64,000 nt of DNA. Source: Phytophthora sp. 'mugwort' (Eukaryota; Oomycota; Peronosporomycetes; Peronosporales; Peronosporaceae). The position numbers were made by a program, and so were the translations under genes. Positions within the stretch are counted from its first letter, which is position 1. Each line of letters begins with the position of its first letter. Where the stretch lies: positions 1,922,001 through 1,986,000 of the forward strand of contig JAUCEF010000012.1 in NCBI GenBank assembly GCA_033558025.1, read 5' to 3'. Shown in pieces: positions 31,892 through 58,920 of the stretch. The notes beneath the pieces are model-generated. The model saw nothing but the letters and a program-made list of their open reading frames with translations, searched no databases and was not told the origin of the DNA.

Positions 31892-31989
31892 GTTATCAGT
31901 GGGGTGTATCTATATACATACCCCCTTTTAAATTTTTGGGACTTTTTTTAATTAATTCAGAAATTACCGACAGAGCGATCTTAGTGCTT

Positions 31990-37827: not shown

Positions 37828-38589
37828 GTGGCGAGCGAGGTGTGTGGGCTGAGTGCGACCAGACAGACTCCTTTTTAGGCTTGGTTCGGGTTGTATTGTG
37901 CTCCAGCATAAGATTGACACTCTTTAAGAAATAGTGAGAGTTTTAATCATGTAGTACATGCAACCTTTGTTTCTTGTTGTTATTAATTTTTAATTAATAT
38001 CGTCGGAACGGCAAGGTATAGTTTCCGTGAAGATCACCTCAAAGATTTGCGCGTTGGATCAGTCGACCCGGCTCATCTCCACCAAATGTAGAGAGAGAGA
38101 GAGGCAGACTTGTCTATTTGGTCTTATTGGGGACTAGAATCTCCACCAAATGTAGTCCAAGTTGAAGTCGAAGGCATCTTGTACACCGTGAAGTTGAATA
38201 GACAGTCTGATCCTCTCTCTCTTGAGGGCGAAAGCAACGGGAAGGTACTGGGGATCCAGTCGCAACAGAGACGGGTGTTTTCGTCGGGGGTGCGATCCAA
38301 GTCCCGAGCGTTTTGGAAAACGTGTTCCCTTCCATCTGCCCTGGTTGCCGTCGGATCCGACCTGGTATCTTCTGCGTGGCTGCTGCTGATAAAAGAGCCA
38401 GAGCGAACGATCAGGCCCCGAATAAATGATTGTACGGCAAATATACTGGAATATTTGTACTGAATTATTTATTCGATAAGATCGCAGACAAATACGAATA
38501 ATTTATATGGTCGTAAAACTGGCAGTGTTTTTTTTTACGTCTACAAAATAACTTTTCTGGTAATTACATTTTCATTTTTCTTTTCTGAG
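37828..38589. other. Intergenic region with short direct repeats
   Basis: No supported gene. ATCTCCACCAAATGTAG occurs twice, near 38,077 and 38,139, either side of an (AG)n run. The rightmost part is AT-rich. Confidence 0.35.
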
Positions 38590-39211
38590 CTACTGCTGCA
38601 TATCCAGACACCACAAAAGCACAGGTTGCGGATACTCCTCCATATATACAGTAGCAACCGCAATTAGTGGTGTGTAATTAGTGTGAGTGGTTCTGAGAAT
38701 TTGGTGAAGCGGGATAGGTCCGACTCTATTAATTTGCTGCCCTGGGTTCGAGCCCGCCTTCGTGGATTGGTTAGGGTCCACCACGGTAAGTGGTGCTATT
38801 GTAAAAAAAAATACGGTAGCTGCAATTGCGATACGAAGGTAGCCCAAATTCTCGAAAATAGACCAATATTTATCATAAATTGGAGCCAGAGCGTTTAATT
38901 TTACATCAGCCAGCAACCACGCGAAAGCAACAAGAAGTAGCAATGCCTTCGAGAAACGCATCGACATAGACCCCTTGCGATGGCTATGATAAACTCGTTG
39001 GAAGTGCGCACTCTTGTCCAGATTGTTCGGCGAGCATGCAGCCGTTCTACGGGACTCCCGTCGGTTCTGAAGGCTTCGGACAACCAATTCTGTGCCCAAA
39101 GTATGAACACCGTGAAGTTGTGAAGCCGACCAGCGCTTCACCAATCGTGGCCGCTTTCGCGAAAGCGCCTGTACACAATCTCCAAAAGCCGCCCACGTCT
39201 GAGCCATCATC
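38590..39211 (-). other. Open frame with hydrophobic segments next to Polinton copy 2
   Basis: A minus-strand frame of about 200 codons that runs into the element's terminal repeat, so any real gene here was cut by the insertion. It has two hydrophobic stretches (KALLLLVAFAWLLADV and IAIAATVFFFTIAPLTVV). No family is recognised and it may be non-coding. Confidence 0.2.
39206..39211 (+). other. Left target-site duplication of copy 2 (ATCATC)
   Basis: The six bases just outside the left terminal repeat. The partner at 57351-57356 is ATTATC, one mismatch. Polintons make 6-bp duplications on insertion. Confidence 0.5.
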
Positions 39212-39385
39212 AGTAGTAATACTTGGAACATTACGCCGGCAGTTTTTTTACTTTCCGTAATTTACCATCGAGAACAATCCTGGAACCTTCTTTCGGACCA
39301 GGTGCTATTTTGACGGCGCTACCTCTCGACCACCTTAGAGTGAAAGCAACGTCTTTTGGATCTTAGGGTAGTTTTAGAACCGCTC
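39212..39385 (+). repeat. Left terminal inverted repeat of copy 2
   Basis: Starts AGTAGTAATACTTGGAACAT and ends at CCGCTC. Same length as the right repeat, with about 13 substitutions and no indels. The first 55 bases are identical, as expected if the tip is bound by the integrase. Confidence 0.88.
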
Positions 39386-39587
39386 GACCGACAACATTCA
39401 AACTATATTGATAAAACAATAGATAGTTTTTTATTATCTTCTCTTAGCCACCAATCAGGAATAAGAAATCAGTCAGCGCCGCCAACTATGCTTTAAATCG
39501 CAAGCTTTGAGTTCTGCGATATGGTTAGATAGGAACTTGTCGAAGCGTAGTTGCCACACTGGATGGCTATGAGTTCACACTGGATGA

Positions 39588-40469
39588 CTATGAGTTCTCA
39601 CGCTTGGCTAAGTACTTCGAAATAGATCTCTCCTCACGGTGCCATTCAGCATGAGCAGTCCATGAATTGCGCGATCGGAATCGCTTTCTGCATCCTCGCT
39701 CTGGGCAAGTAAAATCGACTTCATCTTCTGACGACGAACCCGAATCCTGGTTCAACACCATTTCCAACACAGGTGCGCGCATCCTGAAACCAGGAAGAAC
39801 GTCGCCACCGTCAAGATCTCTCCACGCAGTGTTGTCAGAGCATTGTACGTCTCCATTGTCGTCGAGATAGTACTCATACATCCGCTGAAAGTCTGGGCGT
39901 GGGTCGATCAGCCAACCCAACTGGACGCCGTGCTGGAAATATTCATTTCGCATCTTTCGATCAAGAGCGCTGCGTTGAGAGCCTCGACCAGAGAGCTTAT
40001 CAATCTCAACAACAAAGGTGGGAACAAAGGGATCGCCACGGTACGTCCACATCTGTTCACAAGTCAAATTCCTGTCATCATCTCGCGGTGTGTATGCCAC
40101 GTCGGGCATTCTCACGTTGGGCCCTCCGGGACGCTGCTCCAGAATGAACGCCCCTTGCGAGGTTGTCACTCTGCCTCCTTTTCCAGACCACGTCGCCCAT
40201 TCATCCAAAACTCTCGCAATCTTGGCTGCCACCTTCTCATTGCCATAAACGACCATTCGAAAGGGGATGAAGCGACCTTCGTCGATGAAGAACGCCGGCT
40301 GCTCGCCAAAAACGGGGTTCACCAGTGGACCGAGCTTCTTCACGTGATAATTCAACTGCTTCAGCTCCACTCCAGGATAGTCCTTGACGTAGCACAAAGT
40401 CGCCTTCGTTTCCAAGTCGCGCATGAGTCGCGTAAGGACGTCTTCGTGAGTTTTTTGCTTGTCCGCCAT
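39588..40469 (-). CDS. Uma2-type PD-(D/E)XK nuclease with C-terminal C2H2 zinc finger
   Basis: A 293-aa intact protein. Residues 120-200 have the Uma2 (DUF820) nuclease pattern: MPDVAY (Asp123), FVVEIDK (Glu155), DRKMRNEYFQHGVQLGWLIDP with Lys172 and the GWLIDP signature. The C-terminal segment (251-277) is a C2H2 finger: Cys255, Cys260, His273, His277. It would be expected to cut DNA, with the finger adding DNA contact. It lies between the left terminal repeat and the polymerase of copy 2 and reads outward, so it appears to be cargo of the element. Copy 1 lacks this region, so its link to the element rests on the terminal repeats. Confidence 0.8.
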   Translation of the reverse strand: MADKQKTHEDVLTRLMRDLETKATLCYVKDYPGVELKQLNYHVKKLGPLVNPVFGEQPAFFIDEGRFIPFRMVVYGNEKVAAKIARVLDEWATWSGKGGRVTTSQGAFILEQRPGGPNVRMPDVAYTPRDDDRNLTCEQMWTYRGDPFVPTFVVEIDKLSGRGSQRSALDRKMRNEYFQHGVQLGWLIDPRPDFQRMYEYYLDDNGDVQCSDNTAWRDLDGGDVLPGFRMRAPVLEMVLNQDSGSSSEDEVDFTCPERGCRKRFRSRNSWTAHAEWHREERSISKYLAKRENS

Positions 40470-40838
40470 CGCTGCTCTTTCTCACTGGTTGCTTTTCGAC
40501 CGAGTTGCTTTTTGACCGAGAAATTACACGATGTGGTCCACACTTTTTAAGGTCGGTAGTCGTCGGACTTTCGGGTGATTTTCAAGTTTGGAGGAGGCTG
40601 ACAAAAATGTGGAGCCAAGGCCTCATTGCAGAGAGCAAGCGACAAGCTTAATGCGGCAAAGGATGCCGGAGTTGTTTGAAAAGCGTGGCATACTGTTCGC
40701 CGTAAGACCGCAGGGGTGCAAGCGATATGTAGATTAGTAATACGCTTCGAAGTAGGCATAAAAAGTAATGAATGCGGAGCTTTGCCTTCTATTATAATAT
40801 TTTATTCCTGATAAATATGAAGTTAGTAATATACAAAG
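40470..40838. promoter_or_regulatory. Divergent promoter region inside copy 2
   Basis: Separates the leftward Uma2-like gene from the rightward small Lys-rich gene. Very AT-rich from 40,785 to 40,838. No gene seen. Confidence 0.4.
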
Positions 40839-41108
40839 ATGACGTACTCACCTGAACAATACGAACTTAACAAAGAGCGAATCAAAGCCGCTCAAAAGCG
40901 GTACTATCTAAAAACAAGGGAAACGCGACTGGCTAAGCAGCGAGAATATGATGAGAAGAATCGCGAAGAAATTTGTGCCCGTAAGAAGAAGAATTACTTA
41001 AGTAAATCAGAACTTAGCCAAAGCGAACTTAACCAAAGCGAACTTACTAATTATTTTTTTTTTCTCAGATATAAAGTCAGCCCCAATATAAAGTCGATCC
41101 TGATATAA
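40839..41108 (+). CDS. Small Lys/Glu/Tyr-rich helical element protein
   Basis: An 89-codon frame (MTYSPEQYELNKERIKAAQK) with regularly spaced Tyr and charged residues, a pattern typical of short coiled proteins in large DNA viruses. A short repeat at 41,010-41,045 encodes SELSQSELNQSEL. The frame after that, with a phenylalanine run, is probably read-through of a broken end. Function unknown. Confidence 0.45.
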   Translation: MTYSPEQYELNKERIKAAQKRYYLKTRETRLAKQREYDEKNREEICARKKKNYLSKSELSQSELNQSELTNYFFFLRYKVSPNIKSILI

Positions 41109-41169
41109 GGTCCGATAATTATAAAGTCGATTCTCACCAGATTAATATCGACAAAGATATATAGGCAAT

Positions 41170-44100
41170 ATGTTTGCATACGAACTCGCAAGATTAAAGA
41201 GATTAAATATCCAAGCTGTCAAATGGGGTAGCAGCTACAGGGTTAAGGTTCGAGGTAGAACTGGTAAGATGGTATATGTTAGCAACATTTCACGCTCAAT
41301 GAACAAGAAATTGGTGGCTAAGCAGTACAATGTTTCAGTTGAAACCCTTGAGAAGCATATGTCGCCTGACTATAAGGCTGATCCCAAGTACCGTTTTTAC
41401 ACTGGTAATCACATGGAATCACACCTATATGTGGGTATCGAGGCTACTGATTTCTACGATAAGCTCGAGAACGTTCTTTCGACCCAGGCAAGTGCTTTTA
41501 AGGTAATATTGCTCTTGGGTACGAACTTGTGAGCAACACTGATCCTGATGACACTCGCTACTTCTACCCAAATCTCGCTAACACTTATGTATTCAATAAG
41601 CCTGTCGCAATCAACAGCAAGGCGGATATTCGAAAGAAGGTGATTTCGGAAATTCGGTCTATGGAGCTGGCTGACAAGCTGAACTACCCCAGCTCCGGAT
41701 ATAAGCTTAAGGCGATCACTGCATTCAAGATTTTTGTCTATCATCGCGACCATGCTCTTGGGGATAGCGATGCTGTTATTCCTAAGGTTATCCGCGAAAA
41801 CAAGCATGTAATTAACTTCCCTAAGACCAACAACAAGTGCGTCTTCCACTGCATCGCCTGGCACACATTCCAGAGCGCTAAGAAGGATCCTCGCAGAATT
41901 CAGGCTCAAGTGAAGGAGGCATTCAAGCGCTACTGCTCTTTCAAGGGGGTTAATTATACGTTGAGCCTATTTAGAAGCTTCAAGCCTATTGACCTACTAC
42001 AGCTCGATGAGAGTGAGGACTGCTTCCAACTCGGTATCAACGTATATAGCATGGATGTAGCTACCGGAAATGTGGAATACATTCGTAGGTCGGACAAGGG
42101 GTATGAAGCGATGGATATTCTATCACACGAGAATCACGCTCTCTACATCAGGAGCATCGATATGCTTCACTCTAAGTATTAGTGCCCCAAGTGTGAAATG
42201 ATTTTCGTGAGTGGTGAAAGATTTAAAAATCACAAGAAAAATCAGTGCGAGCTTGTTAATATTGAGAGCTTCCCCGCTGAGCCAACTATCTACAAGCCAG
42301 CTCCTAACGCGATTCGATCACTGCTTACAAAGTATTCCGTTAAGGATGCTAACCAGTACATCGACCACTTCATTGTTTATGACTTTGAGGCAATCCTTAA
42401 GCCTACGGCGACTCAACACGGGGAGAATACTGTCTTCACGAACGAACACATTCCGGTGTCTGTATCCGTAGCTGATAGCTTAACCGAGGAGGTGCGCTGT
42501 TTGTAAATGACGATCCAAAGATGTTGCTTATGGATATGTTCAAAAACATTGGTGATGTATCGGTGAAGATCCAACAGTACAATGCCGATAAGTATAAGTC
42601 GCTTCTGCAAAAAATCATCAATGCCCACGGTCTGACAGGTATGGAAATTCCAGGCGTCAAGCTTGGTAAAAAGTACAAGATGTCTGATGTGGAGAGTTGG
42701 ATAAAGAAAGGAAGTATGATAGCTTCTTTCACTTCCATAGCAGTCTTGGCTTTCGTAAGCAGAGGTCCGACTACGGAAGACTTAAACAGCAGATTGATCA
42801 GGTACCAGTATTCGGCTTCAATTCGGGTCGATACGATATCAACTTGATTAAGAGCGACTTATTCACCATCATTGGTACTGACAACATCAAATCTGTTATC
42901 AAGAACCCCAGCTACATGTGCATCGCTACATCGAACATGAAAATGCTCGATATTAGCAACCTATGTACCAGCTGGTACCAGCTACGATAAGTATCTTACG
43001 ACATATCTCGGTGGCTGCAAATGTGACGACAAAATTAGATGTGTCTGTGGTCTTGGCAAGGTTCTTTTCCCGTATGAGTACATCACCGCGTTCAATGTAC
43101 TCAACCAGACTACTATCCCGCCTAAGTCAGCTTTTGACAGCAAGCTCCGTGGAATAAGCATCACCGATGATGACTACGAGCGAGTGAAGTTCGTGTGGGG
43201 GTACTATGAGATGAAATCCATCATGGACCTACTGGTATGGTACAACAATCTCGATGTAGTTCCATTCATCAAGGCTATCAAAGCCCAGCGCGAGCTATTC
43301 ATGCGTTTCGATCTGGATATGTTTGCAGATGGAGTGTCGCTACCTGGACTTAGTGAAAAGGTTATGTATCAGACCTGCTTCAACAATCTCCAATACCCGG
43401 ATAAGACACCTGCTAACGTATTCCAATTCCCAGCCCAGCGCATGGGCGGCTACAAGAGTCAGGATGCTAAGGCAAAGCGTGAATTTGGTATGACACTTGA
43501 TCACTTGGATACATTGCTGCAAAGCAAAAGTATCTGTGTGGTTTATGCTACTGTCAGCTGACCGTCGATACCGCTTCAGCAGACCGTATCAACAACAAGC
43601 TTGGACACATCGATGGCAACATATTGGTTAGCTGTTTCAAGTGCAACACCGCTCGTAAGGACATGTCGCTCAAGGGATTCCGCTATAAGAAGTTGCTTGA
43701 GTTCAACTCGGACAGATTGGTGTATAGCATTGATAAGGAGGAAAAGGACATCTACGCTAAGATGAAGGCCAACATTGCTGGAGGCCCATCTATTATCATT
43801 ATTCACTACGCTAAGCGCAATGAGACAAATATTCGCGGAGGTAAGCTCTGTAAGAAAATTATCGGATACGATGCTAACGCTCTATACCTATGGGCACTTG
43901 GTAATGAGATGCCATGCGGACGATTGACTACGATCGAGGCTTATGATGGCATTGTCGAGGACATCGTTGCTGATAAGTTTTTCGGATTCCTTGAATGCGA
44001 TATTCAAACTCCAGACCATCTTCGAGACTACTTCAGTGAGATGACCCCAATTTTCAAAAACACACTAATCGATTGTACTGATGAGAGCGTCATTGGTCAT

Positions 44101-45152
44101 CACATGTACAAGTACAACGAGGTACGTAAACAAAGCCGAGCAAAACCAGCTCGCAAGCTTATAGGTAGCTACTTTGGTGAAAAGATTCTAATATACACAC
44201 CTTTGCTTAAATGGTATCTTTCCCACGGTTTCGAGATCACCAAGACTTACTGCTTTATTAAGGCCAGCTCTCACAAGGCTTTTGATCCTTTTATGGAGGC
44301 TGTATCAAACGCTCGCCGGAAGGTGATGTTGATAAGTCGAAGGCGATGATTGCTGAGATGATGAAACTTGTAGGCAACAGTGCTTTTGGTCGATCTGGAA
44401 TGGATATGAGCAAGCACAAAGAGGTCAAGTATGAGTCGAACGACAAAGCTATTAAGAGCAAGATCGAACACTTTTTACGTTCCACGGGTTGGAGGAGCTT
44501 AATGATTCTTGTGAGATTACGATGAAAAAGCGTCGCCTCAACAACAAGAACCCGATGCATTTATCGATTGCTATCTATCAGCTCGCTAAGCTACGCATGC
44601 TTCAGTTTTACTATGACTGTATCGCTTTTACTTCGATCGTTCAGACTTTCAATATCAGGAGATGGACACGGATAGTGGCTATATCGCATTCAGCTGCGAT
44701 AACCCATTCAAAGAATGCATCAAGCCTAAACTACGTGATCACTTCGATGAGCATAAGTATGAGTGATTCCCGCGAGACTACAACGCTGAGGTAGCCAAGT
44801 TCGACCGCCGCACGCCTGGTCTATTCAAGGAAGAGTGGCGAGGTGATGCAATGGTCTCATTATCCTCTAAGAACTACATCTGCTACCTACCGGACGAGGA
44901 GCACAAGGTCAAAGTCAGTGCTAAGGGTATACAGCAGGGGCGTGGTCGCAATATTGATGTACTTAACCCAGATGGTTTCGAGACAGTTGTACGGGACCGT
45001 ATCGCACTTCGGGTACTAACAAGGGTTTCAGACTATCGAAAGAAACCAAATCGATCATTACCTATACTCAAACCAAAACAGCGCTCAATTACTACTATGA
45101 TAAGCGCCAGGTAATGTCGGACGGTATTTCAACGATTCCGCTGAATGTCTAA
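41170..45152 (+). pseudogene. DNA polymerase B (protein-primed type), copy 2, multiply broken
   Basis: Near full-length Polinton-type polymerase. The N-terminal domain includes NNKCVFHCIAWHTF, a Cys-containing motif usual in these enzymes, then a C2H2-like finger (CPKCEMIF...HKKNQC). Exonuclease motifs DFEAIL (about 42,380) and GFNSGRYDINLIK (about 42,820) follow, then the HNH-like Cys insert, motif A YDANALYLWA, motif B LVGNSAFGRSG and motif C DTDSGY. An in-frame TAG replaces a codon at 42,180. Shifts lie near 41,505, 42,495, 42,700, 42,963, 43,522 (shared with copy 1), 44,320, 44,473 and 44,628, and there is a TGA near 44,765. It cannot make a full enzyme as written. Confidence 0.9.
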
Positions 45153-45200
45153 GGGGATATATCGAACTGATGCTTATTTTTTCCCTCTAAATATAGGATC

Positions 45201-46225
45201 ATGTCTTTTCAAGATCTACTGAAAAAACTCTACTATGATCCAAAAACCGGTTTTATCGGCACTCAAGCTCTGTATCAGAAGGCAAAGGAGTTAGATCCTG
45301 AGATTACTATCAGAATCGTAAAGGAGTGGTATGCTACCAGACCGATATTCAACGATTTCAGGATCAGAAGAAGCGATTTGATGGCTTCAAAATAGCTTCA
45401 CACAACCCCAATTCGTGGCAAATGGATCTTGCGTTTTGGGAGAAACGACCAATTTTGACTGCTATCAACATCAACTCAAGGTTGGGGTACGCAAAGCTCT
45501 TATCAAACAAGACGGCAGCAACTGTATTAGCAGCGCTTAAAGCATTTGTTCACCTTCACACACTTGATATCCTGACAAGCGATAATGGAAGCGAGTTCAT
45601 GAACTCACAGGCTCAAGAATTCTTCCAAACTAAGAAAATGGAGCACTACAACAACGAACCAGGTGATCATGGAACCATGGGTAAAATCGAACGATTCAAC
45701 AGGACCTTGAAGCAGAGACTAACTAAAATGTCTCCCAAGAGGATACCGCAAAAGCTTATCAGCGATGTTATCGAAAACTATAATAGCACGTTTCATCGCT
45801 CGATTAAAATGACCCCAAACGAGGCCAAAGGTAAAGTCATCGGGTCAGAGCTGGAACATAATCAAGGTGAAGCAGAGAGAGTTGAAAATGAGTTCGAAGT
45901 CGGAGCAAATGTGCTATATCGACTTAAGAAGCAGAGGTTTGATAAAGAAGCTGCTCGATGGAGCAAAGCCGTCTATACGATCGTTGGAATTGATGGATAC
46001 CGAGTCCAAATTCGCTCAAAAAATGGTCATACCCTCTACAAGGCACCAAACGATCTTAAAATGGTTAAATCAGAGACTACGAATGCTACTATTAATCGAG
46101 GTGATATTCTTGAGGCGGAGAAGATCTTGGATCACAAAAAGATACGCTCTGGAAAGTACAAATATCTGGTGAGATGGCTTGGTAATGAACCTGATTCCTG
46201 GAACCGCAAGATAATCTCCGATTGA
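45201..46225 (+). pseudogene. rve integrase with C-terminal chromodomain, copy 2
   Basis: Same integrase as 20154-21178. Here the catalytic core, DDE residues and chromodomain are in one frame (45326-46225), but one base is lost near 45,333, after KEWYA, separating the first 45 or so codons. The two copies are thus broken at different places, so the parent gene was intact when they separated. A start inside the long frame could still give the core and chromodomain. Confidence 0.9.
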
Positions 46226-46404
46226 TCAACAAAAATAAGAGATCTACCCTTGAAAAGGAGTATTGGGGTTAAAAAAATGAGTCATAATTAGCTTGTAAAT
46301 AAGTTTGATAGAGACATCCTCTGTAAGCTTTTGACTCGGTATATCATTCGATGTATTTTTAATGATATTTTTGTAAATATATGACTTGATATATTGATAT
46401 AATA

Positions 46405-49400
46405 ATGTGTGCAGGCTGTTTAGAGAAAGTACGTGAGCTTGCCAAGCTACAAAGGAAGCTTTGGATCATTCAGGAGGTTAGTCGTATCAAGAATGAGTTG
46501 ATGAATCTTGATGCTGTCGCTACTTTCCGTAAAACTGTTGTAAATCAGAAGTATAGAAATGAGCTGGAAGATATATTTGGAGTTCCATTCCATTGTATCA
46601 AGGATCGATATCTTAATCTTCTAAATGAGCGAAATCATATTTGTCATTCTTATGCTACTTCCGACACGACTCAGTCATGCCGAGTTATTGTTAATTTGAG
46701 TACTCATTTTTTTTATGATTCGCAACATATAGATACGATGTTCCCAAATTTCACATCCCGCGCTCAGAGAGAGCAGAAACGTCAGGAGCTACTTGAAAAA
46801 GCTCAGCGACGGGTTCGACAAGCTAACACCAAGCGTGAGATGTATCAGAGCACATCGTGGGCGACTGATGTATCCAATTCTTTCACTACGATAGCTAAGA
46901 AGACGACGGCAACAACCCAAACTGATACAGGTGTTGGCACTGATGAAGCAATCCCTGATGCAGTGAAGCAAAACCTGAATGATATTATTGATCAGGCGAT
47001 TGCTTAATCCGACTTAAAAAAAAGTCTCAGTGATGAAAACTCTGGTATAAACCCTGAGGTATCAACAACTGGAACTAACACAGAACCTAACGTTAGATTA
47101 CTTTCCGATGTTAAACTGGATGGTGTTAGTATCCCTCCATTACAGAGACCACTATCTAATGTTTTAATAGAAGGAATTAGTATCCCTTCAGTTGATATCG
47201 CTGTTGGGGAGGATGCATCACCAACACCTGACACTCTATTTAGCGATGATGAACAAATCTCTCAAAACGAATTTAAGAAAGCGGTTGAGGAAATTTTTGA
47301 GGTTTATCCGATTCTTGCTCAAATGGGTATTCATCCTCTTGCTTCTAATGGACGTCAGCTAACAAAGTATTATTTTGGAAACGGGGCTAAGACATACAGT
47401 ATTAGATTGAACAAGATTGTCTCGGTTCCAAGCATTGATGGGGAAGAGACATACGATCATATTGGATTTGTCATCACAAACGATGTTAGATTTAACAATT
47501 GTATCAATGAGAAACATGAGCGAAATGAGATGGGTAAAGAGGATAAAAATGCACCTTTTCAAGTATGGAAGCGTATTGGATCCAAAAGAGCAAGTGCTTC
47601 TTCTTTTGACGACTATAAACAAAGCAAACAACGACTTGAGGACAGTTTTCTCTTTAATAATTCAACTTTTACAACTTCCGATCAGTCTAATAGTAAATTC
47701 AAAATGTACTTGATCATTGCTAAAAATAAGGAACTACTTGAATCTAATGGTTTAATGAAGAAGATTGTTCCTATCCTTAAAAGAACGAACAAATCAACAC
47801 CATTTGATGCTAATGGTTATGTATGGATCAAGGGAAGTACTATTGGTGTTTTCGGTAAGGAAAGTAATCAAATGAAGCCGGCTATCATCAAGAAGGTCAA
47901 TTGGCAACTTACGCTCAAATCATTTGTAGAGATATGGTCAGGTCGAAAGGTCTTGACTTAAAGATGATCGGTGATGAGGACAAAGAAATTGATGTTAATG
48001 ATTTCACAGAAGGTGTAGGTGAGGCACGTCAAGGTATTATGGCTGGAATTGATGAAGATATGGATCAAAACCTATCCAACGCTGATAACGATGCTAAAAA
48101 CATCTTAACTGATTACTATACGCAACTTCCTTCAAAGGGTATTAAAATCCCGTTTAGACTCAAACCAATCGTTGAGGTTAAAGATAGTGTTAAAACGCAT
48201 ACAGACTACTATTTTGGTGAGCCATCTGAGACCAGACCATTGAATATTAGAATTGGGAAACACAAGCAAGTATCTGGAGAAGCGTGGAAGGGATTGATGA
48301 GGAATATCAGGTGGATGGGTACATTCCTATCGTTGCTCGATGGATTTGAGGATTTGGATAAAAAAAAAATATATATCTCAAGGAGTTGAGTATCCATTCC
48401 CATCAAATGATGAGGAAGCAGCACAATTGGTTGAAAGTAAGAAACTTGATCAGCAAAGGCGCAAAAATCTCGATGATAATCTTAAGATATTGAATGAAGC
48501 AATCTTGAATACGGCTCATGATATCAGACGACAAGGTATTGAACCCTATACTCAGGTTGATAGTGAAGACCAACTACAGAAGCTTCATGACGATTCTGAA
48601 CGCGCTTACCAATCATACGGAGAAGCGCAAAAACGTTATGAAGAGGCTAAGGAAGCAGTCAAAGGAAACAACTCAAAATTAGCTCGATCGGCACTAAAGG
48701 CAGCGGCATCAGCTATGAAGGCAACAAGAGCTGTATTTAACGCAAAAGCTAAACAATGTAGCATTGTGGCTCAGGAGCAAATCAATGTAGATGGCTTTGT
48801 TGATCGTCAAGATGATAAATCGGTTCGTGGAGTTATGAATGATATGATCAATCAGGTTAGCGGAAGCGGATTGAAAGGTCGTGGCCTAAGAGGAGCAGGT
48901 GTTGCACCACTCGCTGGGGTGGTCAGACGTGGAAGGACCTACAACCTAAATGAGATTCAGGGGTTAGCGACACCAAGCGCCTACGTTTATCGACAGCGCG
49001 GTAGCAAGTACATTTGTATTCCTGACCTTGATGCTAAGACTCCTGTGATTGTACAGCCGAATCGTCGCAAGTGTGGGCCGAAGTGTCAAATCAGTGATAG
49101 CCTAAAATCAATGATCAGAAGTCTCGTATATAAGAACCATATCGATCAGGGGATGTATGACAAGCTCAGCATCGAAGATAAAAAAATGTTCAAAGAGCTC
49201 CTTGCGATAACTCATCTTCAGTACAATTTTCACGATAAGCTCACTGATCCACTTGAAACACTTCGCGCTGGGTATGACAAGCTCAAGGCTCATATTGAGT
49301 TAGGAAATGATAATCCAAGCATCATCAAACAGCTCAAGTCTCTTACAGTGAATATGTACAGCAATCGACTCATTGATGATAAAGAATATAAAGAAATTAT

Positions 49401-49416
49401 AACTCGACTACTATAA
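46405..49416 (+). pseudogene. Large coiled-coil element protein, copy 2
   Basis: Longer version of 21358-24232; it keeps the segment of about 125 bp lost from copy 1 (FPNFTSRAQREQKRQELLEKAQ). A TAA at about 47,006 replaces a Gln codon of copy 1. The frame changes near 47,900 as in copy 1, and again near 48,360 in an A run where copy 1 differs. The last 350 codons (48340-49416) are open and end with NDNPSIIKQLKSLTVNMYSNRLID. Probable virion or DNA-associated protein; function not known. Confidence 0.7.
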
Positions 49417-49418
49417 TC

Positions 49419-49642
49419 ATGTTCTTCTTTAACCCCCGAATTATTGCAGTGATAACGCTGATAACAACGTTGCTGAGCTCAAAACCATTATGAAGAATCT
49501 AATCATTCATGAACGCCCTCAGAAGACTCAGGCAGCCGTATGGGCTACTGATCTCGATAAGTTCATCAGGAAGGTGGATGCATCAACGCAAACCGAGGGT
49601 GGGCGTATGTGGGCCTACCAACCCAAGAAAAAAAGACCGTGA
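49419..49642 (+). pseudogene. Small element protein, copy 2
   Basis: Counterpart of 24235-24458, with the same frame change in the C5 run (49433-49437) and only a few substitutions. Ends MWAYQPKKKRP. Function unknown. Confidence 0.5.
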
Positions 49643-49651
49643 AGACGTTTG

Positions 49652-49891
49652 CTATCTAAGCAATGCCACTTCGCACGAGTTTGTTTCGATATCCTCGATA
49701 AATGTTAGTTTTTTATCGCTGATACTTACTTCAAGTATGGCAGACTCACCATCAGGACTTTTGGTGGGAAGGAACACACTATCACCAAGAACAATACTTT
49801 TGTCAGCTTGTAGCATCGTCGATCCCACGATCTGATTAGGTTCACCAGTAGTTAAATTAGTTTTGAGCTCTTTACTTGGTAGGCAACCCAT
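49652..49891 (-). CDS. Small element protein with MGC N-terminus, copy 2
   Basis: Counterpart of 24472-24708 (MGCLPSKELK). The C-terminal 12 or so residues differ from copy 1 because the T run near 49,710 is one base shorter, so one of the two ends is wrong or broken. Confidence 0.5.
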   Translation of the reverse strand: MGCLPSKELKTNLTTGEPNQIVGSTMLQADKSIVLGDSVFLPTKSPDGESAILEVSISDKKLTFIEDIETNSCEVALLR

Positions 49892-49901
49892 TGTTTTATA
49901 T

Positions 49902-50164
49902 TTAGGTCCATAAATATTTTTTCGAAAACCAATCGGCTGAGTACATCGGATGGTTGTTTTTGTGTCGCTTATAGTATCTTTCGCGCCTCGCTTTATCGCT
50001 GTGATCATACGCACGAAATGCTCTTAAAGGTGTCGAATCCTTGTATTGTTGATAAGGCGTACCATCCCGCTTGAAAGCGCCAAAAGATACAATGCTACCA
50101 TCATCAAACACAGCATCATATTTTTTCCCTTTCGTTGAGAAACTCTAAACTTGAAGGCAGCCAT
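49902..50164 (-). pseudogene. DUF5754-like small protein, copy 2
   Basis: Counterpart of 24719-24981, with the conserved SFGAFKRDG...RRERYYKRHKNN...WFSKKYLW core and the same early frame change (near 50,136). Confidence 0.65.
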
Positions 50165-50177
50165 TGTCTATACTCAC

Positions 50178-52182
50178 TCAGCGATTTTTCAACTCATCGA
50201 TTTGCTTTTGCTGGTCATCTACTCTATCAATCAATGCCTGAATCATTCTCACGTTATAAGCAGCTAATTTTGAATAATCTACATGAAGCTTTACCCCCTT
50301 AGGCTCTAACCATGGATCAGAACTTTGCTCAAGTTCTGTATCATTATCAGGGATACGAGCGACTAAATCTAAGAATCCTTGATCTAAAACATCCTGAGCG
50401 ATCAGACCCAATTCTTTTGGCTTATCAGGATGTTGCTTCCATTTATATGATTTCACTTTCAAGGTCTTGTAAAGACATTCAACACGGCCAATAGGCACAT
50501 TAACAATATCTTGCTTTAAACGACGATCTGATTGCATAACCATCGCTTCGCAACCAATATATCCGCTAAATATACCGCATACATTTGTATATGTGATTGG
50601 TGTTCCAGTAGCAGTTTCTGTCACTCCAGAGTCACTTCTTAGTCGATACGCTGTTAATCCTACATTACCTGCACTATTCCATGTATAACTTACAGTATTA
50701 GAGACATGGAGAGGGGCTGATGGGGTGACAGTAGATAATCCAAGACGTCCAGTGTTCGTTAGAGTCATACGAGTTGTCTGAATAGTACCAAATCTTAGGT
50801 CATTAGATGTATAATTTCCAATCCAAGTAGCATTCGTAGATGTTGCATTAGTGCCATTATTGACCTCGATTTGAAACTGAACAGGTGAAATGTTCGATCC
50901 TTTAAATGCAAGCATCCTTGTATAGCTACTATCCAAATAATCCGTTCCAGATCCAGTAATAGAGAAATATTCATTTGCAGGTGTTGAATTAATGCCTAGC
51001 TCTGTTAAGCTTCCTACAGTTGCTATATTAGCTTGATTTCCGTAAGCTAAAAAACCCTTTAGACTTCCAGAGCACGTAATATCACCAGATGTTGAAAAGG
51101 TTGCTGCTGATATATATTTCGACTTGCATCGACGAAAGCAACACTATTGACTTAATACCCAGCGAATGCGTTCAACGTTCCGCTACAAGCAATATTACCG
51201 ATATTTTGGATATGCCTTGAGCTTGTGATAACATCAGTCCCGCTGATTCTGATCGATCCGAAGTCGCCGGGTGTCCCGCTGACCTTTATCGAACCATTCA
51301 GGTTTTGGGCATCAAGAGTGCGGATCGATGCGATATCCTTGTTGATATCAACTACGAGAGCTTTAGATGCTACAGCACCACCATAACTGATGCCAACGAA
51401 TGCCACATGATCAAATTGAGATACGATCCCAACGATGAGTTCCAGAATTTGAGGCTAGGTATTTGCAAACCAGTTCCACCAGTATTCAGCGTGAGGTTGG
51501 TTAGGATTCCAACAGCCGTAATGCCCGTTTGAGATCCTGAAACAGCTCCAGTCAGCGTTGTTGCGGATATTGATGATAAACCAGTTAGTAATCTACCTGC
51601 ACCCGTGAATACAAGGTTGCCGCCAATCGTGAGCCCTGATAGCGTCCCAAGTGAAGTAATATTGGTTTGAGCTCCTGTCGATAGCGTGCCAGATAGTGTA
51701 GCTGCCGATACAGCGCCAGAGACATTCAATGCTGAGAGAGTGCCAAGTGAAGTAATACCAGGCTGCGCCGCGGTCTTTATGGATCCATAAATATTGGTCG
51801 CCGTCAGTGATGTAATAGTTCCGATTTCGCCAGATCCTCCAAGAACGAGAGCCTTTGAGTTTGCGGCTGATCCGGGTGTAATTCCATCTAAGAATGATGG
51901 TAGAGTCCCCACGGGAACACCTGCGACCGTCAGAGCGCTGCAACTGATAGTACCAAGCCCACTAATATCATTATTGGTTCCAGGAACAAGTGATACGCCT
52001 TGTGTAGCTATCCCGGGTGTAATCCCTGATAGGAACGTCAATCGATAATCATTCTTATCAAGATACAAAGTCTGAGCATACTCATATGACAGATAACCAG
52101 ACGAATCCAACTTTAGAAAGTAATCGGGATTATAGATGGTTGATGTGAAAACTGGCTGAGGATAATGAAAACCAGAACTCAT
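50178..52182 (-). pseudogene. Trimeric fibre protein with S74 chaperone domain, copy 2
   Basis: Counterpart of 24995-26998. The repeat region (51370-52182) and the S74 chaperone end (50178-50936, SDRRLKQDI) are intact. The join from the middle part to the chaperone part is in frame here, unlike copy 1. Damage in this copy is a two-base insertion near 51,115 and a TAA near 51,155, plus the shared frame change near 51,410. Confidence 0.85.
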
Positions 52183-52231
52183 AGTTGTTTTTGTCTCAAG
52201 CTATATAGAACAAGCGATTAAATACACGATC

Positions 52232-52915
52232 ATGAGCGGAATTCCAAACTATGGGGCCTCCCTCCCGAAAAAGCTCAAATCGTCAAGCATGGGTGATATA
52301 CCAGCTCTTGACATTAAAAAGCTGTTCAGGATGGTTGTCCTTGGTCCATCGTTCAGTGGGAAGAACAATCTATGTATGTTCATCCTCAAGCATTCTCCTC
52401 ACGTATTTGCACATCTAACGACCATAGCTCGTAATCCTCAGCAAGAATTGTATGAGTATCTCCGTGATAAGTTGGAAGATTTCATTACTTTCGCTGACCC
52501 CGATACCCCACCGAAAGTTGATCAAGTCCGCCATACGCCAATGAGCTCCAACAAACCTGAACTTGTCATCATAGACGACTACAGTAATGATAAGCTACTC
52601 CAGAAGAATATCTTCTCACATTATTTTACAAGGGGCCGACATTTCAAGATATCCACCATATTCCTTAGCCACAGCTACTTTGCTACTGATAAGATGATTC
52701 GCTTGAATTCAGAGTACGTGGCGATCCTAAAAGCTAATTCGAAGCGTGATTTACAGATGGTGGTCAAGGACTTCAATATCAAGGGGGTAGATGATCGCTC
52801 GATCGTCTATTACTACAACAAAGCCACTGAGCAAAAGGGACAGATGTTATTCATCGACTCGGTGAAGGGTCAAATCAGGTACAACTTTGATAGACCTATT
52901 GCGATGGAAGAGTAA
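52232..52915 (+). CDS. Genome-packaging ATPase (FtsK/HerA type), copy 2
   Basis: Intact 227-aa packaging ATPase. Walker A GPSFSGKNNL (about residue 37) has Asn where most P-loops have Ser or Thr after the Lys. Walker B is LVIIDDYSND (about 112). Function as in copy 1. It heads the capsid-building block, divergent from the fibre gene. Confidence 0.92.
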   Translation: MSGIPNYGASLPKKLKSSSMGDIPALDIKKLFRMVVLGPSFSGKNNLCMFILKHSPHVFAHLTTIARNPQQELYEYLRDKLEDFITFADPDTPPKVDQVRHTPMSSNKPELVIIDDYSNDKLLQKNIFSHYFTRGRHFKISTIFLSHSYFATDKMIRLNSEYVAILKANSKRDLQMVVKDFNIKGVDDRSIVYYYNKATEQKGQMLFIDSVKGQIRYNFDRPIAMEE

Positions 52916-52961
52916 CTCCATTTAATCAATCAGAAATATGCTTAGCATCATATAATTAACG

Positions 52962-53827
52962 ATGTCAAGTTTCATCAAAATCGACAGTACCAACGTCGTA
53001 CAAGATGGATACAATTCCACTTGGAAATATCAATTCCCTGGATCGGCTGCTGACATCCATGAAGCTGTTTGTGCTGTTCAATCAATCAGCATGTACAACT
53101 CGGAATATAACATAGATGCGATGCAATTTCAGAATACTTCATTCAAAATCGACGTGCCAACGGCGGCTACTACATCTACGATAAGTATTAATCTAAAGAT
53201 GGTATATATCAATACACAAATATCAACGCAAGCAACCAAGCTGCTTTGATCAGCGCTGGTGCATATCTGATCGATAGCGAAGGGAATAACGTTTTCTATA
53301 TCCAATTGATTCAAAACAGTGTCCATTACGCTGCTCAGATCGATTTCTCGCCTACTCCTACTTCCCTCCCATCAGGATATACAAGACCCGCTACTGGGCT
53401 TTATTCCGTTTCTGATACTGGTTTGCCTACAATTACACGCGTGCCTCGTCTGATTATTGACAATGCTGAGTTTGGTAAGGTTCTTGGTCTTGTTTCAGGA
53501 ACGTATCCCGCTGCATCGGCTACTGTTGCAAGCGCTCAGCTATCAAATATCATTCCTCAAGCTCATCCAACGAGCTCATACATCGTTCGTTGTGATCTTA
53601 TAAAAAATGAGTACGTCGCCTCGGGTGATATTCTAAGTGCGTTTGATAGAGGTGATGCCCCAATTGGAAAGTTGATTAATTATAAACGAAGTCAATATGC
53701 TTGGATGAACTGCCACAATGGCTCTCGCTCTACGATCACAATTAGCATTTACAATCAGGATGATAAGAAAGTAATCTTTCGTGATACATCAGTATCGATC
53801 ATGCTTCTAATTCGTCCAAAAAAATAA
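52962..53827 (+). pseudogene. Minor capsid (penton-type) protein, copy 2
   Basis: Counterpart of 27778-28643, with the same frame change near 53,195 and only a few substitutions (for example SKLL/TKLL, SGTG/SDTG). Both halves are open. Confidence 0.82.
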
Positions 53828-53845
53828 GCTGATGATATATTTGTT

Positions 53846-54604
53846 TTAGAAGTAAAACTTCCAGCTGCCATAGCCTTCTTTCTCATAGCTCGATTCTTAG
53901 CCATGTGATCCTTAGCCTCTTGACTACCCTTTGCAAATGTTTTGGGCTTGGCCTTGGCTACACCAACGCCGTATCGTCTCTTTACTTCTCCACGGATAGA
54001 CTTGATTAGGTTTTCATGCTCAGGCTTAGTCGCCTTGGATAGTAGGTACTTCTCTCCTGCATCAACTGCATCAGTTAGAACCCCCTTTCGTTTAGCGTAA
54101 GATAGAGCTCGCTTAGCTCCCTTCTTCACATCAGTCATAGTTAGTTTTCCTCCTTCCTTATCAGAGTCGCTGTCATAGACACCAATACCCGTCATGGAAC
54201 GAATGGCTGCTCTTGCGGGGATAGCCGCCGGTGGCTGACCTGCATATGTTGCAAGAGCGGGAACTGCAAAATCAGCTGCTCTACTAAGTAATCCTGAGTC
54301 TTTGGCGAACTTAAAAGATGATTTGATACCTCCCATACCTTAGACCAAATACTCGCTCCGTGCATGCCTCCACCATTCATATGCTTGAATGGATGGCCGA
54401 TTTCCTTCTTTGTGATAGTCAGTCGCGTTCCTTTCCCCGCTTTAGCAGCCTTGACTGCCTTAGCGTAGCTCTCGGGATGTAGATGTAGTGTAGCTCCGCT
54501 TCCGCTTAGATCATCATTCGACAGCGTTAGTGTTCCTGTCTTGAACGCTCGCTTGAGCTTCGCTTCGGGGATAGCTGATGAAACTGATAACTCCTTGAAG
54601 TCAT
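53846..54604 (-). pseudogene. pVI/pX-like basic virion protein, copy 2
   Basis: Counterpart of 28662-29422. It has the shared start-frame problem at 54604, a further one-base loss near 54,333 (in VWGGIKSS) and a one-base loss at the end, so the tail reads through to 53755. Confidence 0.7.
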
Positions 54605-54606
54605 GG

Positions 54607-54986
54607 TTATATTATTTTCAGGTTTAAATCCTTCATCTTTGAAAATAATTGTGGTTTCTTGTGTTGCTTGGAATAGAGCCAAAGGATACAAAATGGTCCG
54701 CAATAATCTCCATAAGTCCCTTGATATTGCTTGGGGTTGTATCTTCCAATTCCATACTTAGTAGGACCTGCTTCACCCATACTATCGAAATACTCACCGT
54801 TATGAACTGCCGTCCAATGGCCTACATTAATATTAGGTGGTCGTAGTAGAATGAGGTATGATCCTTTCTTCGAAATTGGTTTCGTTATTTCACTTGATTC
54901 ATAGATATCATCAAGATGAACCCCAATTATTTTCGATAGTTCGATTAATTATGGTCGGATGTGATGGGCTTGATAAGATGGCTCAT
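54607..54986 (-). pseudogene. Adenain-like (Ulp1 family) cysteine protease, copy 2
   Basis: Counterpart of 29425-29799. All expected active-site residues are kept: His in GHWTAV, Asp in YFDSMG, Gln and Cys in QGTYGDYCGPFC. However, one base is missing near 54,950 in the N-terminal part, so no full frame exists. This is the reverse of copy 1, which has the frame but an altered active site. Confidence 0.82.
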
Positions 54987-55034
54987 AATATTTAATTTCC
55001 TGAAAAGTATATTAGAAACCATATAGATTCAACG

Positions 55035-56753
55035 ATGAGTGAAACTCAACTAACCGACCAATATTTGTACCAGAGTTCGCTCAAGAGCGATCCTGAGATC
55101 AAGGTATCTTCCGGCAAGCGTGTCCCGTTTGTTATTGATCTGAATCAGGGTTCATACCAGAATGGTGTCATTACCATTGATGCAACTGCTCAGCTTAATG
55201 GTTCTGAGGGATTCGCATGTCTTCGCGATGCTTACCTCATGCTCCCATACAAGGTATCGATGAAGAATGGTGGTACCGCTCAGACCGCTGCTGCCAATCG
55301 TTTCTGTGCTACTCTAAAGTGCGGCAACTGGAATGTCATCGATAGCATGTCGCTTGAGCTCAATGGTAAGACCATTATCAGTATGGCTGACTACAAGCTG
55401 TTTTGGAACAATATTCGTGCTCAGACAGGTTATAGTCCTCAGTACGTTGAAAAGCATGGTGCTGAGTCGTTCCTTTTCCCCGATTCCGCTCAGTCCGTTT
55501 CATACAGCTCTGCTACAAGCTCGACTACCGGTGATGGATATAGCAACACTACTGCATTCACGTCTTCTTTCGCTACCACTGGTCCCGCCGGTGGCGCCTC
55601 TATCCCCAATGATGGTCTCGTTAAGCGTCTTCTATCGAACCCTCCTACCGCTGGTGCTGATTTCTCTACTTCGTGGCCTTCGATAGGTGCGGCGGCTGCT
55701 TCTACTACCATTGCTAACCAAACTGCTCGCGGTGCTTTCGTTGCTAGCTCTAACGCTGCTGATGCGATCATGGGAACGTGGAACTACATGCTCAAGATCA
55801 AGCTAACTGACCTCCATCCTATCTTCAGGGATCTTGACTTGATGGTCAATCCTCAAATTCGTCTTCGCTTCCGCGTCAATCAGGGTACTTCCGCTGTCGC
55901 TGTAAGCGCTACTAAGGGTTTGTCTCTAACAAGTACTACTCTTGCAAGTGGTAATGTATGCCCTGTTATGCTTGCGGCTACCTCCACTGGTAATCCTATG
56001 GCTGGTGTCATCGCTAATTCCGCTCCATTCAGTATTTCCTGGGGCGCTGTAGTCAATGCCCTTGAACCCAATATTGATGGAACTTACATGCCTTTCACCA
56101 CTTCTCGTCTGTATGTACCGTTCGTACATCTTGAGAACCCTCAGGCTATTATTTTCAAGCCTGTTAAGAAAATTCGATACAATGACTGCGATGCTCAGTG
56201 GGTCTTTCAGCGTGCTGCTGTTGGTAAGCAAGCGACTCAGCATAATGCTGCATTCGATCTCCAACTGTCGGCGTCTGTTAAAAATGCCAAATACATTATT
56301 CTTCTTCCTTTCGCTGAACAGACGGGTAGCTTTGCTTCCGCCGCTGTACAGCAATTTCAGAGTCCTTTCGATTCGGCTCCGTGGTCGCTTCACCCGGGAT
56401 CGTCTATTCGCAACTTCAACGTTCGTATCGGATCTCATCAGACGTTCGATATCAGCCATGACTATGACTTCCACCACTTTTACAATGAACTGGCTAAGAT
56501 TGGATCGATAAATGGTGATTTGACTCCTGAGCTGGTGGATGGTCTTCTTGACTATCAGACGTGGTCGCTAACTAACCGCGTTCTCATTGCTGATGTCAGT
56601 CGTCTGACTGAGCGTGATATTCCTCAGGCTATTCAGGTACAAGGCATAAGCGCAGGATGCCAAGGAACAAATATGCTCGTACTGGTTGTGAGTGAGCAAG
56701 AGCTATCTTACGATCGCCTAACGGGTGAGATTTTAGATTTTACCACAGCTTAG
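55035..56753 (+). CDS. Major capsid protein (double jelly-roll), copy 2
   Basis: Intact 572-aa capsid gene, the counterpart of 29848-31566 with two residue changes noted (DLMVNPQ, QWVFQ). See copy 1 for motifs. Its preservation contrasts with the decay of most neighbours. Confidence 0.9.
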   Translation: MSETQLTDQYLYQSSLKSDPEIKVSSGKRVPFVIDLNQGSYQNGVITIDATAQLNGSEGFACLRDAYLMLPYKVSMKNGGTAQTAAANRFCATLKCGNWNVIDSMSLELNGKTIISMADYKLFWNNIRAQTGYSPQYVEKHGAESFLFPDSAQSVSYSSATSSTTGDGYSNTTAFTSSFATTGPAGGASIPNDGLVKRLLSNPPTAGADFSTSWPSIGAAAASTTIANQTARGAFVASSNAADAIMGTWNYMLKIKLTDLHPIFRDLDLMVNPQIRLRFRVNQGTSAVAVSATKGLSLTSTTLASGNVCPVMLAATSTGNPMAGVIANSAPFSISWGAVVNALEPNIDGTYMPFTTSRLYVPFVHLENPQAIIFKPVKKIRYNDCDAQWVFQRAAVGKQATQHNAAFDLQLSASVKNAKYIILLPFAEQTGSFASAAVQQFQSPFDSAPWSLHPGSSIRNFNVRIGSHQTFDISHDYDFHHFYNELAKIGSINGDLTPELVDGLLDYQTWSLTNRVLIADVSRLTERDIPQAIQVQGISAGCQGTNMLVLVVSEQELSYDRLTGEILDFTTA

Positions 56754-56775
56754 ATTTAAAAAAAATATTTTTTTC

Positions 56776-57078
56776 TTAGCTTAACTCTTTCAGTAGCTTA
56801 GGACACTTTTCAATAACGAATTGGTTCTTGCGAAGGTAATCGATATATCCTGGATTCATTCGACTGATCTGCTTGAGGGTCTTACCTCGATACTTACCCC
56901 AAGTCATCATGTAAGAGTTATCATCAGTCAGAAACTTGCTGTGGAGGAATATCTTGATTTCATCACTAATAATTTGATTGGGTTGATTGAAAACCCAACG
57001 ACAATAGCCGGGATCACTATCATAGACCTCTTCAATGGTCTTACCTTTGTATTTTCCGAAAGTTAGTTCGTTCGACAT
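56776..57078 (-). CDS. Protein with two ExoX-C-like GKYKGKT repeats, copy 2
   Basis: Identical protein to 31589-31891. Intact, last gene before the right terminal repeat. Confidence 0.75.
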   Translation of the reverse strand: MSNELTFGKYKGKTIEEVYDSDPGYCRWVFNQPNQIISDEIKIFLHSKFLTDDNSYMMTWGKYRGKTLKQISRMNPGYIDYLRKNQFVIEKCPKLLKELS

Positions 57079-57176
57079 GTTATCAGTGGGGTGTATCTAT
57101 ATACATACCCCCTTTTAAATTTTTGGGACTTTTTTTAATTAATTCAGAAATTACCGACAGAGCGATCTTAGTGCTT

Positions 57177-57350
57177 GAGCGGATCTGAAACCACCCTAAG
57201 ATCCAAAAGGCGTTGCATTCGCTCTCAGGTGGTCGAGAGGTTGCGTCGTCAAAATAGCAGCTGGTCCGAAAGAAGGTTCCAGGAATGTTCTTGGTGGTAA
57301 ATTACGGAAAGTAAAAAAACTGCCGGCGTAATGTTCCAAGTATTACTACT
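57177..57350 (+). repeat. Right terminal inverted repeat of copy 2
   Basis: Reverse complement of 39212-39385 with about 13 mismatches, and nearly identical to the right repeat of copy 1. Ends CCAAGTATTACTACT; flanked by ATTATC. Confidence 0.88.
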
Positions 57351-57589
57351 ATTATCGAGCACTGATGTCCCGCCTCCGGCGCCAGTTATCCCCATCATGG
57401 GCGAAAACAGAAACATCACCGCACGTCGCGCGGCGCAAATCGTCAGTATGGTTAAACAGCGAGCGAAAGTGGTAAGGTGGATAGTTTTTGGATGGTGATA
57501 AAGGGCAGAATCAAGTGCCTTTTCGCTCAAGCGGTTGACGAATTCCCGTAGATATTCAGGTCTAAGACGCGCAGCGCAAACCTCACCAA

Positions 57590-58920
57590 GGCGATGAGGT
57601 GGTGGAAGCAGCGGGAGAAATGGCTCCACCTGTCCAGAGGGGTGCGAGAGCTCTCGGCAAAGTGCGAGCAAGGACGCTGGCGTGTGAACAAGAAGGCTCA
57701 AAGGGCGTGGAAGACAGCGGAGCGAATGGGTGGCATGACTGTATTCACAGCTGCTTGATGAGTTTGACCGCCTGCGCAAACTTGGATTGAAATTCGATGC
57801 GTCGATGCTGCTTCAGCTTGCTGTGCGGCTTTTGAAAACGAGCGCCGGGTCATTTAACAGTACGTCAGCTGGCAAAGCTGGAGCGGCCATGCGGAGGAAA
57901 TATCTCCAAGGTGGATTCAGACGTTTATGGAGGCTCATCGAATTGTCCTTCGCACCCAGTCCGGTAAGAACCAGGTCAGCCCCGAGAAAAAAGAGGCAAT
58001 CGAGCGTGAAGTTGCAGTCCATCTTGGAGAGCTGAAGCGGGGGGGGGGGGAGAGAGAGTCGGGACGTCTAAACGAGGACAACACAACGGCAAGATGCTCC
58101 GTTTTGCTAGCGAGAAGTGCGTTAAGTATGCAGACGTTGTATCTGGTGGAGAGGGAATGACAATGGTTGTGAGAATTTCTGGTGGTGCAAGCGGCCGATT
58201 TTCACCCGCCCATGATGATCTTCCAAAACGCGTCATCAAGCTATGCTATCCGTGGGATCCTGGACAAGACACCAGAGTATGCTATCGAACGGGACCTAAC
58301 GGGTGGATGAGCAAGCGAGTGTTTAGGCAGTATCTCGGTGAGAGGAGGGCAATGAGCGCTGATCCTCGTGGGCGCGAAAAGCACATTTATCTCGACAACT
58401 GCTCGTCACACCTAGACGAAGACGAGTGCAAAGATGAGTTATCTCAATTGAATGCCCGTCTCATTTACCTTCCACCCAACGCGATCGATTTATGTCAGCC
58501 TGCTGACTCATTTGTGATCGCCAAGATCAAAGATGACTGGCGCCGTAAATGGAACGAGAAAAAGATAGCGCTTATTGAGGGTGGTAAATGGCAGAAACCG
58601 AAATGATAAGACAGCTCGTGGTCAGGGAAGCTCAAGAACCCAGGCTAGAAGTTCTTTTTGTCCTTGACTGCTGAATGCGCTCGTGAGGTAAACGCGCGCC
58701 GCGCCAGAAATGGCGTCAACTATGCCAAGAAGGCAAATAATCAATTGTGGGCTTTCGCTTAATATTGACGGTTGTTGGAGCCCAAAGCAGCTTTCCCTCA
58801 TCTCCGGGAAATTATCAAGATGTACTCAGGTGAGATTGGCGGCAAGACTGCTGCTGAGTCGGCAGATATGAGCTTGTGCGAGGGTAGCAGCGCTGCTGAA
58901 GATGTGGACTGCATCGCCAG
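57590..58920 (+). pseudogene. DDE_1 (pogo/Tc1-related) transposase remnant
   Basis: Several frames together give a typical oomycete DDE_1 transposase. An N-terminal helical part (LKFDASMLLQLAVRLLK) precedes VKYADVVSGGEGMTMVVRISGG, then the catalytic strand HIYLDNCSSH and the LIYLPPNAIDLCQPADSFVIAKIKD region. The longest open piece is 58094-58606. A G run near 58,040 and stops after 57,750 break it. It abuts the right end of Polinton copy 2. Confidence 0.78.

Follow-up and report, generated by a model that had tools for sequence, protein, structure and literature searches.

Which kind of element occupies positions 39212-57350 of a 64,000-nucleotide stretch of the Phytophthora sp. 'mugwort' genome (contig JAUCEF010000012.1; the whole stretch is called the window here), and what is the role of the one gene that is whole in all of its full-length copies? 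The element is an 18.1-kb Polinton, the coordinates of an initial annotation were correct, and it is full length but not intact. With a probability of roughly 0.9 it represents a Gossevirus-type Polinton of Phytophthora, in the form of an endogenous copy that has decayed. The Polinton itself is one more member of a published group, and more important is its most unusual gene, which the initial annotation had not mentioned. It encodes a predicted Uma2 nuclease with a C2H2 zinc finger. Tentatively, and as something possible rather than probable, we propose that it is a combinatorially diversified DNA-targeting nuclease, in which a conserved Uma2 core is joined to exchangeable recognition segments and which, when elements, co-infecting viruses or the host are in conflict, would act much as a restriction specificity subunit does. 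It has remained intact in decaying copies, and, most simply, even duplicates of a single insertion have exchanged its segments.

The Uma2 profile matched the protein with an E value of 1.5e-11 and 44.5 bits, the Pfam cut-off being 27. The C2H2 finger scored 0.018, below the Pfam cut-off, and the finger ligands are present. The genome was searched in the form of one assembly (86 Mb, 154 contigs), and at least 40 matches to the terminal repeat were scored, 21 of the left type and 19 of the right type. The Uma2-finger gene lies alongside 20 of the 21 left-type repeats, and it was open in all 20 copies that were fetched (292-298 aa). A search of the genome with the nuclease protein gave 30 matches: besides these 20 left-end copies there were two on contig C17 with 75-76% identity and eight fragments; several of the ten matches away from left ends contain stops. 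Among these 30 matches, from a search that scores best candidates only, there was no separate store of donor cassettes. In the 17 distinct copies C255, C260, H273 and H277, presumably the zinc ligands, are invariant, and so are D123, E155 and K172, which we take to be the catalytic residues. E155 is also invariant in 21 aligned wider relatives, and K172 nearly so. Comparison with the PDB yielded zinc-finger matches and a weak match to 3ot2 (E 0.94).

The distribution of differences along the gene was very uneven. Diversity among the 17 distinct left ends, determined in 60-base bins, was 0-0.009 in the nuclease core (39802-40161) and 0.12-0.15 in two islands at about 39622-39801 and 40162-40221. 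The former is C-terminal and contains the segments V2, V3 (the finger) and V4, and the latter is V1. The first bin was also high (0.105) because it includes 10 flank bases. The bins past 41422 had values of 0.04-0.11 among the 17 left ends, compared to 0.01-0.03 among full-length copies, and were probably raised by copy L031, the match of which ends there. The profile was extended over the whole 18.1 kb in 180-bp windows, in comparison with six full-length copies and, where it reaches (not the nuclease), a partial copy. The highest mean divergence of the element, 0.133, was found at 39572 in the finger island, and the neighbouring value was 0.049. Beyond the nuclease gene only five of 101 such 180-bp windows exceeded 0.03, with a maximum of 0.046.

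Copies of one and the same insertion differ in the islands. Five copies have the flank of the window insertion (mean flank divergence 0.003) and carry five different nuclease sequences, with a mean divergence of 0.13 in each island and of 0.003 in the core. Nine copies have the other flank (mean 0.002) and carry six different nuclease sequences. As copies with the same flank have different nuclease alleles, the islands were, most simply, exchanged during or after the duplications. The 17 distinct copies contain four main protein forms of V1. V2 and V4 each occur in two forms, which are linked in 17 of 17 cases, and the finger between them pairs with either. All four combinations of the V1 forms RVLDEW and ELLGEW with the two V2 forms are present, and each of the two finger types likewise occurs with each of the two V4 forms. 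Silent divergence was 0.17-0.34 in the islands versus 0.024 in the core, and the ratio of nonsynonymous to synonymous differences (pN/pS) was 0.57-1.07 versus 0.29. The differences between the alleles are entire old segments rather than single sites.

The same alternatives were found outside of this genome. A search revealed 119 external nuclease homologues, of which 33 were parsed and 86 were not. In the 33 parsed proteins each finger type occurs with each V4 type, and, as read from the table of forms, the linkage of V2 and V4 is kept in 20 of the 21 proteins that have one of the two V2 types. A P. lilii protein is 99% identical to copy L017 in the C-terminal part and 89% identical in the core, whereas nuclease copies within the genome of the window, the cores of which are at least 94% identical, share as little as 67% in the C-terminal part. 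Because of the P. lilii pattern and the shared forms, the alternative segments look older than the species, or moved between species.

Frame shifts in the nuclease gene, which were suggested by blastn (10 non-triplet gaps in 6 copies), were rejected. None was seen in 19 of 19 global alignments, for which the coding sequences had been chosen as open frames, so that triplet length was partly built in, and the gaps were treated as alignment artefacts of the islands. Directly upstream of the gene, at 40488-40520, is a 16-bp tandem repeat, and blast offsets suggest that its length varies among copies. On C17 (176500-186400, L044) an inverted pair of nuclease genes with 97.6% DNA identity surrounds retrotransposon-like pieces, next to host coding sequence.

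The remainder of the element was then compared with the claims of the initial annotation. Terminal inverted repeats of equal length (174 nt) had been described, and they are the sole inverted pair of at least 40 nt within 38500-58000. A near-perfect 6-bp target duplication had also been described. The flanking hexamers, ATCATC and ATTATC, agree in five of six bases. A 6-bp target duplication is the rule for Polintons. In the same genome six other full-length copies, which represent five distinct insertion sites beyond that of the window, were read at both ends. All five sites have perfect duplications (CCGATG, CAAGTC, GACCGA, GCCACT and GTTATA). The sixth copy (C12:2742) has the same 5/6 duplication, read by eye, and is a duplicate of the window's insertion. 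Dating by the divergence between left and right repeats was rejected. The window's left repeat is 91-93% identical to the 19 right-type repeats, but 96-100% identical to 20 of the 21 left-type repeats (90% to the remaining one), and thus the difference between left and right is older than the dispersal.

A polymerase B (PolB), a DDE integrase, a packaging ATPase and a fibre had been named from the sequence, and profile searches gave matches for all four, in the case of PolB below the cut-off. Of the proteins in the window, Pfam recognized Uma2, rve, Peptidase_S74, Pox_A32 and ExoX-like C motifs above the cut-offs, and DNA_pol_B_2, chromo and C2H2 remained below. The PolB frame is broken in the window. 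Family members at other places of the genome match DNA_pol_B_2 above the cut-off, though the domain was not listed when Pfam was run on a sibling copy with an open frame of 1328 aa. We located what we take to be motifs A and C in the window. A search of the PDB with the PolB sequence gave no convincing match. The polymerase is predicted to be of the protein-primed type, and priming itself would follow from its family. The rve frame of a sibling copy matched retroviral integrases in the PDB. The fibre, with split frames in the window, is 673 aa long in one sibling copy.

Structure prediction, which had been proposed as a check, showed jelly-roll folds both for the 572-aa capsid protein and for the penton relative P0121 (294 aa; penton relatives span 288-294 aa). 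Both predicted folds match capsids of virophages, adenoviruses and giant viruses, and Foldseek ranked mavirus first (PDB 6g44/6g45, 6g41/6g42), its major capsid protein (MCP) being the top match of the capsid. The search of the PDB with the capsid sequence gave no convincing match, and the likeness to the virophage type is one of fold only. The proposed polinton-like-virus capsid type is supported. For the pVI-like protein there was no family match in Pfam, and for the region 46405-49416 no Pfam family above the cut-off. The sibling protease frame (138 aa) contains H, D and CGxxC elements, presumably those of the protease motif, and had neither a Pfam match nor a clear PDB match. Neither the capsid nor the nuclease had a match among the PHROGs.

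The extent of decay was surveyed with tables of stop-free frames for the window copy and the six other full-length copies. In the window copy the genes for PolB, penton, protease and fibre are each broken up into more than one frame, and therefore it is unable to act alone. PolB is whole in one of the seven copies and almost whole in another. Whole frames were found for the penton in one, for the capsid in two, for the ATPase in three and for the nuclease in all seven copies; a 140-aa stop-free frame of the protease is present in all six other copies. Compared to the window, 199 non-triplet length changes were counted in about 87 kb of coding regions other than the nuclease, some of which could be assembly errors. 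The capsid gene had merely four in 10.3 kb (0.39/kb), the fewest of nine regions counted, and so it is relatively well kept. At about 47.3-49 kb a single copy (C5) has a divergent block. The initial annotation had also claimed that the integrated virus could have formed virions. This is plausible for a capsid-building ancestor, but the window copy is broken in several genes.

Several observations weigh against the interpretation as a capsid-encoding Polinton with a diversified nuclease. The confidence of the capsid model is moderate (predicted local distance difference test, pLDDT, 71), no Pfam model recognized capsid or penton at an E value of 0.1 or better and above the cut-off, the DNA_pol_B_2 score of the window PolB is weak, and scans of a viral contig collection revealed no relative and no free virus. 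With respect to the nuclease, three of the 21 aligned relatives have another residue in place of D123, which is presumably catalytic, and the pooled pN/pS of 0.49 is not above one. It is improbable, in our judgement, that the element is a transposon without a particle stage, moving by integrase and polymerase only, with capsid genes as relics. This would fit to the majority of genes being broken in most of the seven full-length copies and to the many copies that arose by segmental duplication; the capsid frame, however, has the lowest rate of non-triplet changes, and capsid relatives with 47-92% identity are present in jgi, lgn and ena contigs, probably metagenomes.

The nuclease islands might also be neutral traces: copies derived from several diverged viral lineages would have undergone ectopic gene conversion or unequal crossing-over with no selection, which we regard as rather doubtful. 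The copies do recombine, the island pN/pS values are not clearly above one, and conversion in the near-identical core would be invisible, so that tracts are not necessarily confined to the islands. However, as divergence outside the nuclease gene is low, the islands would have to be the only places where the diverged donors differ, and the unchanged zinc ligands, the 20 open frames and the occurrence of the same alternatives in other species also speak against neutrality. That the mosaic of alleles is an artefact of assembly or polishing is very improbable. Near-identical repeats are difficult to assemble and a single assembly was used, but all 20 frames are open, and proteins of other species also pair both finger types with differing neighbouring segments.

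Taken together, the following life cycle is proposed. The ancestor integrated via its rve integrase, as the 6-bp duplications show, and, as is typical of the family, the putative protein-primed PolB would have replicated the linear genome starting from its ends. Penton, packaging ATPase, protease and S74 fibre would have served, together with the MCP, to build a capsid of the double-jelly-roll type. Copies have multiplied additionally through segmental duplication on contig C12. Two nuclease segments, one with the finger, represent old alternative modules that copies have swapped, presumably by gene conversion or crossing-over. The islands may set the choice of the DNA target, and selection may keep the pool of modules diverse. 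The predicted role, a doubtful one, is that of a sequence-specific nuclease against rival or host DNA, the target of which is altered by module exchange; conflict with rival elements, co-infecting viruses or the host would be the most likely use. Alternatively, the nuclease may serve the processing of the element itself. The many natural alleles within one genome make target choice directly testable in vitro. The diversified nuclease would also offer a possible explanation for the persistence of decayed viral copies in oomycete genomes, namely that one gene may remain useful.

Table 1. Features of the Polinton and of a second copy in the window.
Feature	Position	Strand	Remarks
Second copy of the element, left part missing	18096-32165	+	98-99% identical to 43142-57350
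Left terminal inverted repeat	39212-39385	+	174 nt, 93% complementary to 57177-57350
Uma2 (PF05685) nuclease with C2H2 finger, 293 aa, intact	39588-40469	-	adjoins left repeat
Hypervariable C-terminal island (V2, finger V3, V4)	39600-39801	-	divergence up to 0.25 among copies of one insertion
Hypervariable island V1 (about residues 86-93)	40162-40235	-	mean divergence 0.13 among copies with the flank of the window insertion
PolB of protein-primed type (predicted), several broken frames	41170-45000	+	DNA_pol_B_2 below cut-off; presumed motifs A, C
rve (DDE) integrase, weak chromo match	45326-46225	+	Pfam rve 2.4e-9; chromo just under cut-off
Large structural-type protein region, several frames	46405-49416	+	one copy has an open frame of at least 656 aa
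Fibre with Peptidase_S74 chaperone, split frames	50178-52182	-	Pfam 6.9e-11; PHROG tail fibre 4.2e-6
FtsK/HerA-type (Pox_A32) packaging ATPase	52232-52915	+	Pfam 1.6e-8, above cut-off
Penton (minor capsid), two split frames	52962-53827	+	relative P0121 folds as penton
pVI-like minor protein, altered frame	53755-54380	-	named from position and composition only
Adenain-like cysteine protease, broken	54607-55025 (approximate ends)	-	138-aa frame open in a sibling copy
Major capsid protein, 572 aa, intact	55035-56753	+	predicted double jelly roll
100-aa protein at right end, two ExoX-like C-terminal motifs	56776-57078	-	Pfam 6.6e-21
Right terminal inverted repeat	57177-57350	-	partner of 39212-39385

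The second copy in the window had not been mentioned in the initial annotation. On the right it ends within the 3' part of a carboxylesterase frame, at the site GTTATA. The two insertions are 7.0 kb apart, genes for the carboxylesterase and a GH3 glycosidase lie between them, and all were duplicated together. The spacer (32200-39100) is present in five copies on C12 that are 99-100% identical, in both orientations, each bounded by both repeats; copies lie near 1.99, 2.53, 2.69 and 2.74 Mb. Polinton copies may drive the segmental duplication of host hydrolase genes. Repeated units with pieces of capsid genes, with spacings of about 26.4 kb and 29.3 kb, were observed at 2.33-2.53 Mb of C12. Elsewhere in the window there are a 1.63-kb inverted pair with 99.7% identity (1876-3508 and 6234-7866), with an amino-acid permease gene in each arm, and a fragment of a DDE_1 transposase (58094-58606).

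A search for further copies, as proposed earlier, gave at least 94 genome matches for the capsid, corresponding to at least about 75 places after merging of pieces by eye, and at least 137 matches for the integrase. An oomycete host, which had also been assumed, agrees with the named capsid homologues, which are from Phytophthora and, in one case, from the downy mildew Plasmopara halstedii (120 of 190 homologues listed). As the capsid relatives of P. infestans have 62-76% identity, the element is probably of an already described kind, the Gossevirus-group Polinton-like viruses of oomycetes. According to the main text of that study, oomycetes yielded 15 complete elements, Gossevirus-group capsid genes are present in integrated oomycete elements, RVE and pPolB occur together in four oomycete elements, and the missing P. 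infestans Polinton capsid was assigned to the Gossevirus group (Bellas & Sommaruga 2021, PMC7805220). Up to 299 capsid (MCP) genes in a single oomycete genome are given in a later main text (Bellas et al. 2023, PMC10120064). The combination of a polinton-like-virus capsid with PolB and rve, which the initial annotation had pointed out, is indeed present but had already been published (Bellas & Sommaruga 2021, PMC7805220). In the open-licence literature searched, no description of the Uma2-finger gene was found, and neither Uma2 nor zinc (or zinc finger) nor hypervariable occurs as a word in the main texts of the two Gossevirus papers (PMC7805220, PMC10120064) and of PMC12220804. An endonuclease cluster, PC_0013, is mentioned for the Gossevirus group in the main texts (PMC7805220/PMC10120064) and may be the same gene.

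Compared with known systems, the element shares with the oomycete members of the Gossevirus (GKS1) group the host, the presence of RVE and pPolB (in four of them) and the high copy number. In those main texts terminal inverted repeats are given for some elements and 5-7 bp duplications for three; the window element has both. With Polintons/Mavericks it has in common PolB, rve, ATPase, a putative protease, MCP, penton, terminal inverted repeats and the 6-bp duplication, but its capsid sequence is missed by Pfam, and the P. infestans capsid type in the main text in print is Gossevirus. The predicted folds of MCP and penton are like those of the mavirus virophage, yet sequence identity is about 10%. 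The nuclease can be compared with restriction specificity subunits of the HsdS type, which, as we understand them, likewise combine a conserved frame with exchangeable segments of the DNA-recognition type. No methylase was present among the gene products scanned, and, in contrast to HsdS, nuclease and finger are here united in one protein of a eukaryotic element. If the islands set specificity, Polinton-like viruses would own a DNA-targeting gene that evolves and serves as a weapon or for immunity, with a logic like that of bacterial restriction specificity genes.
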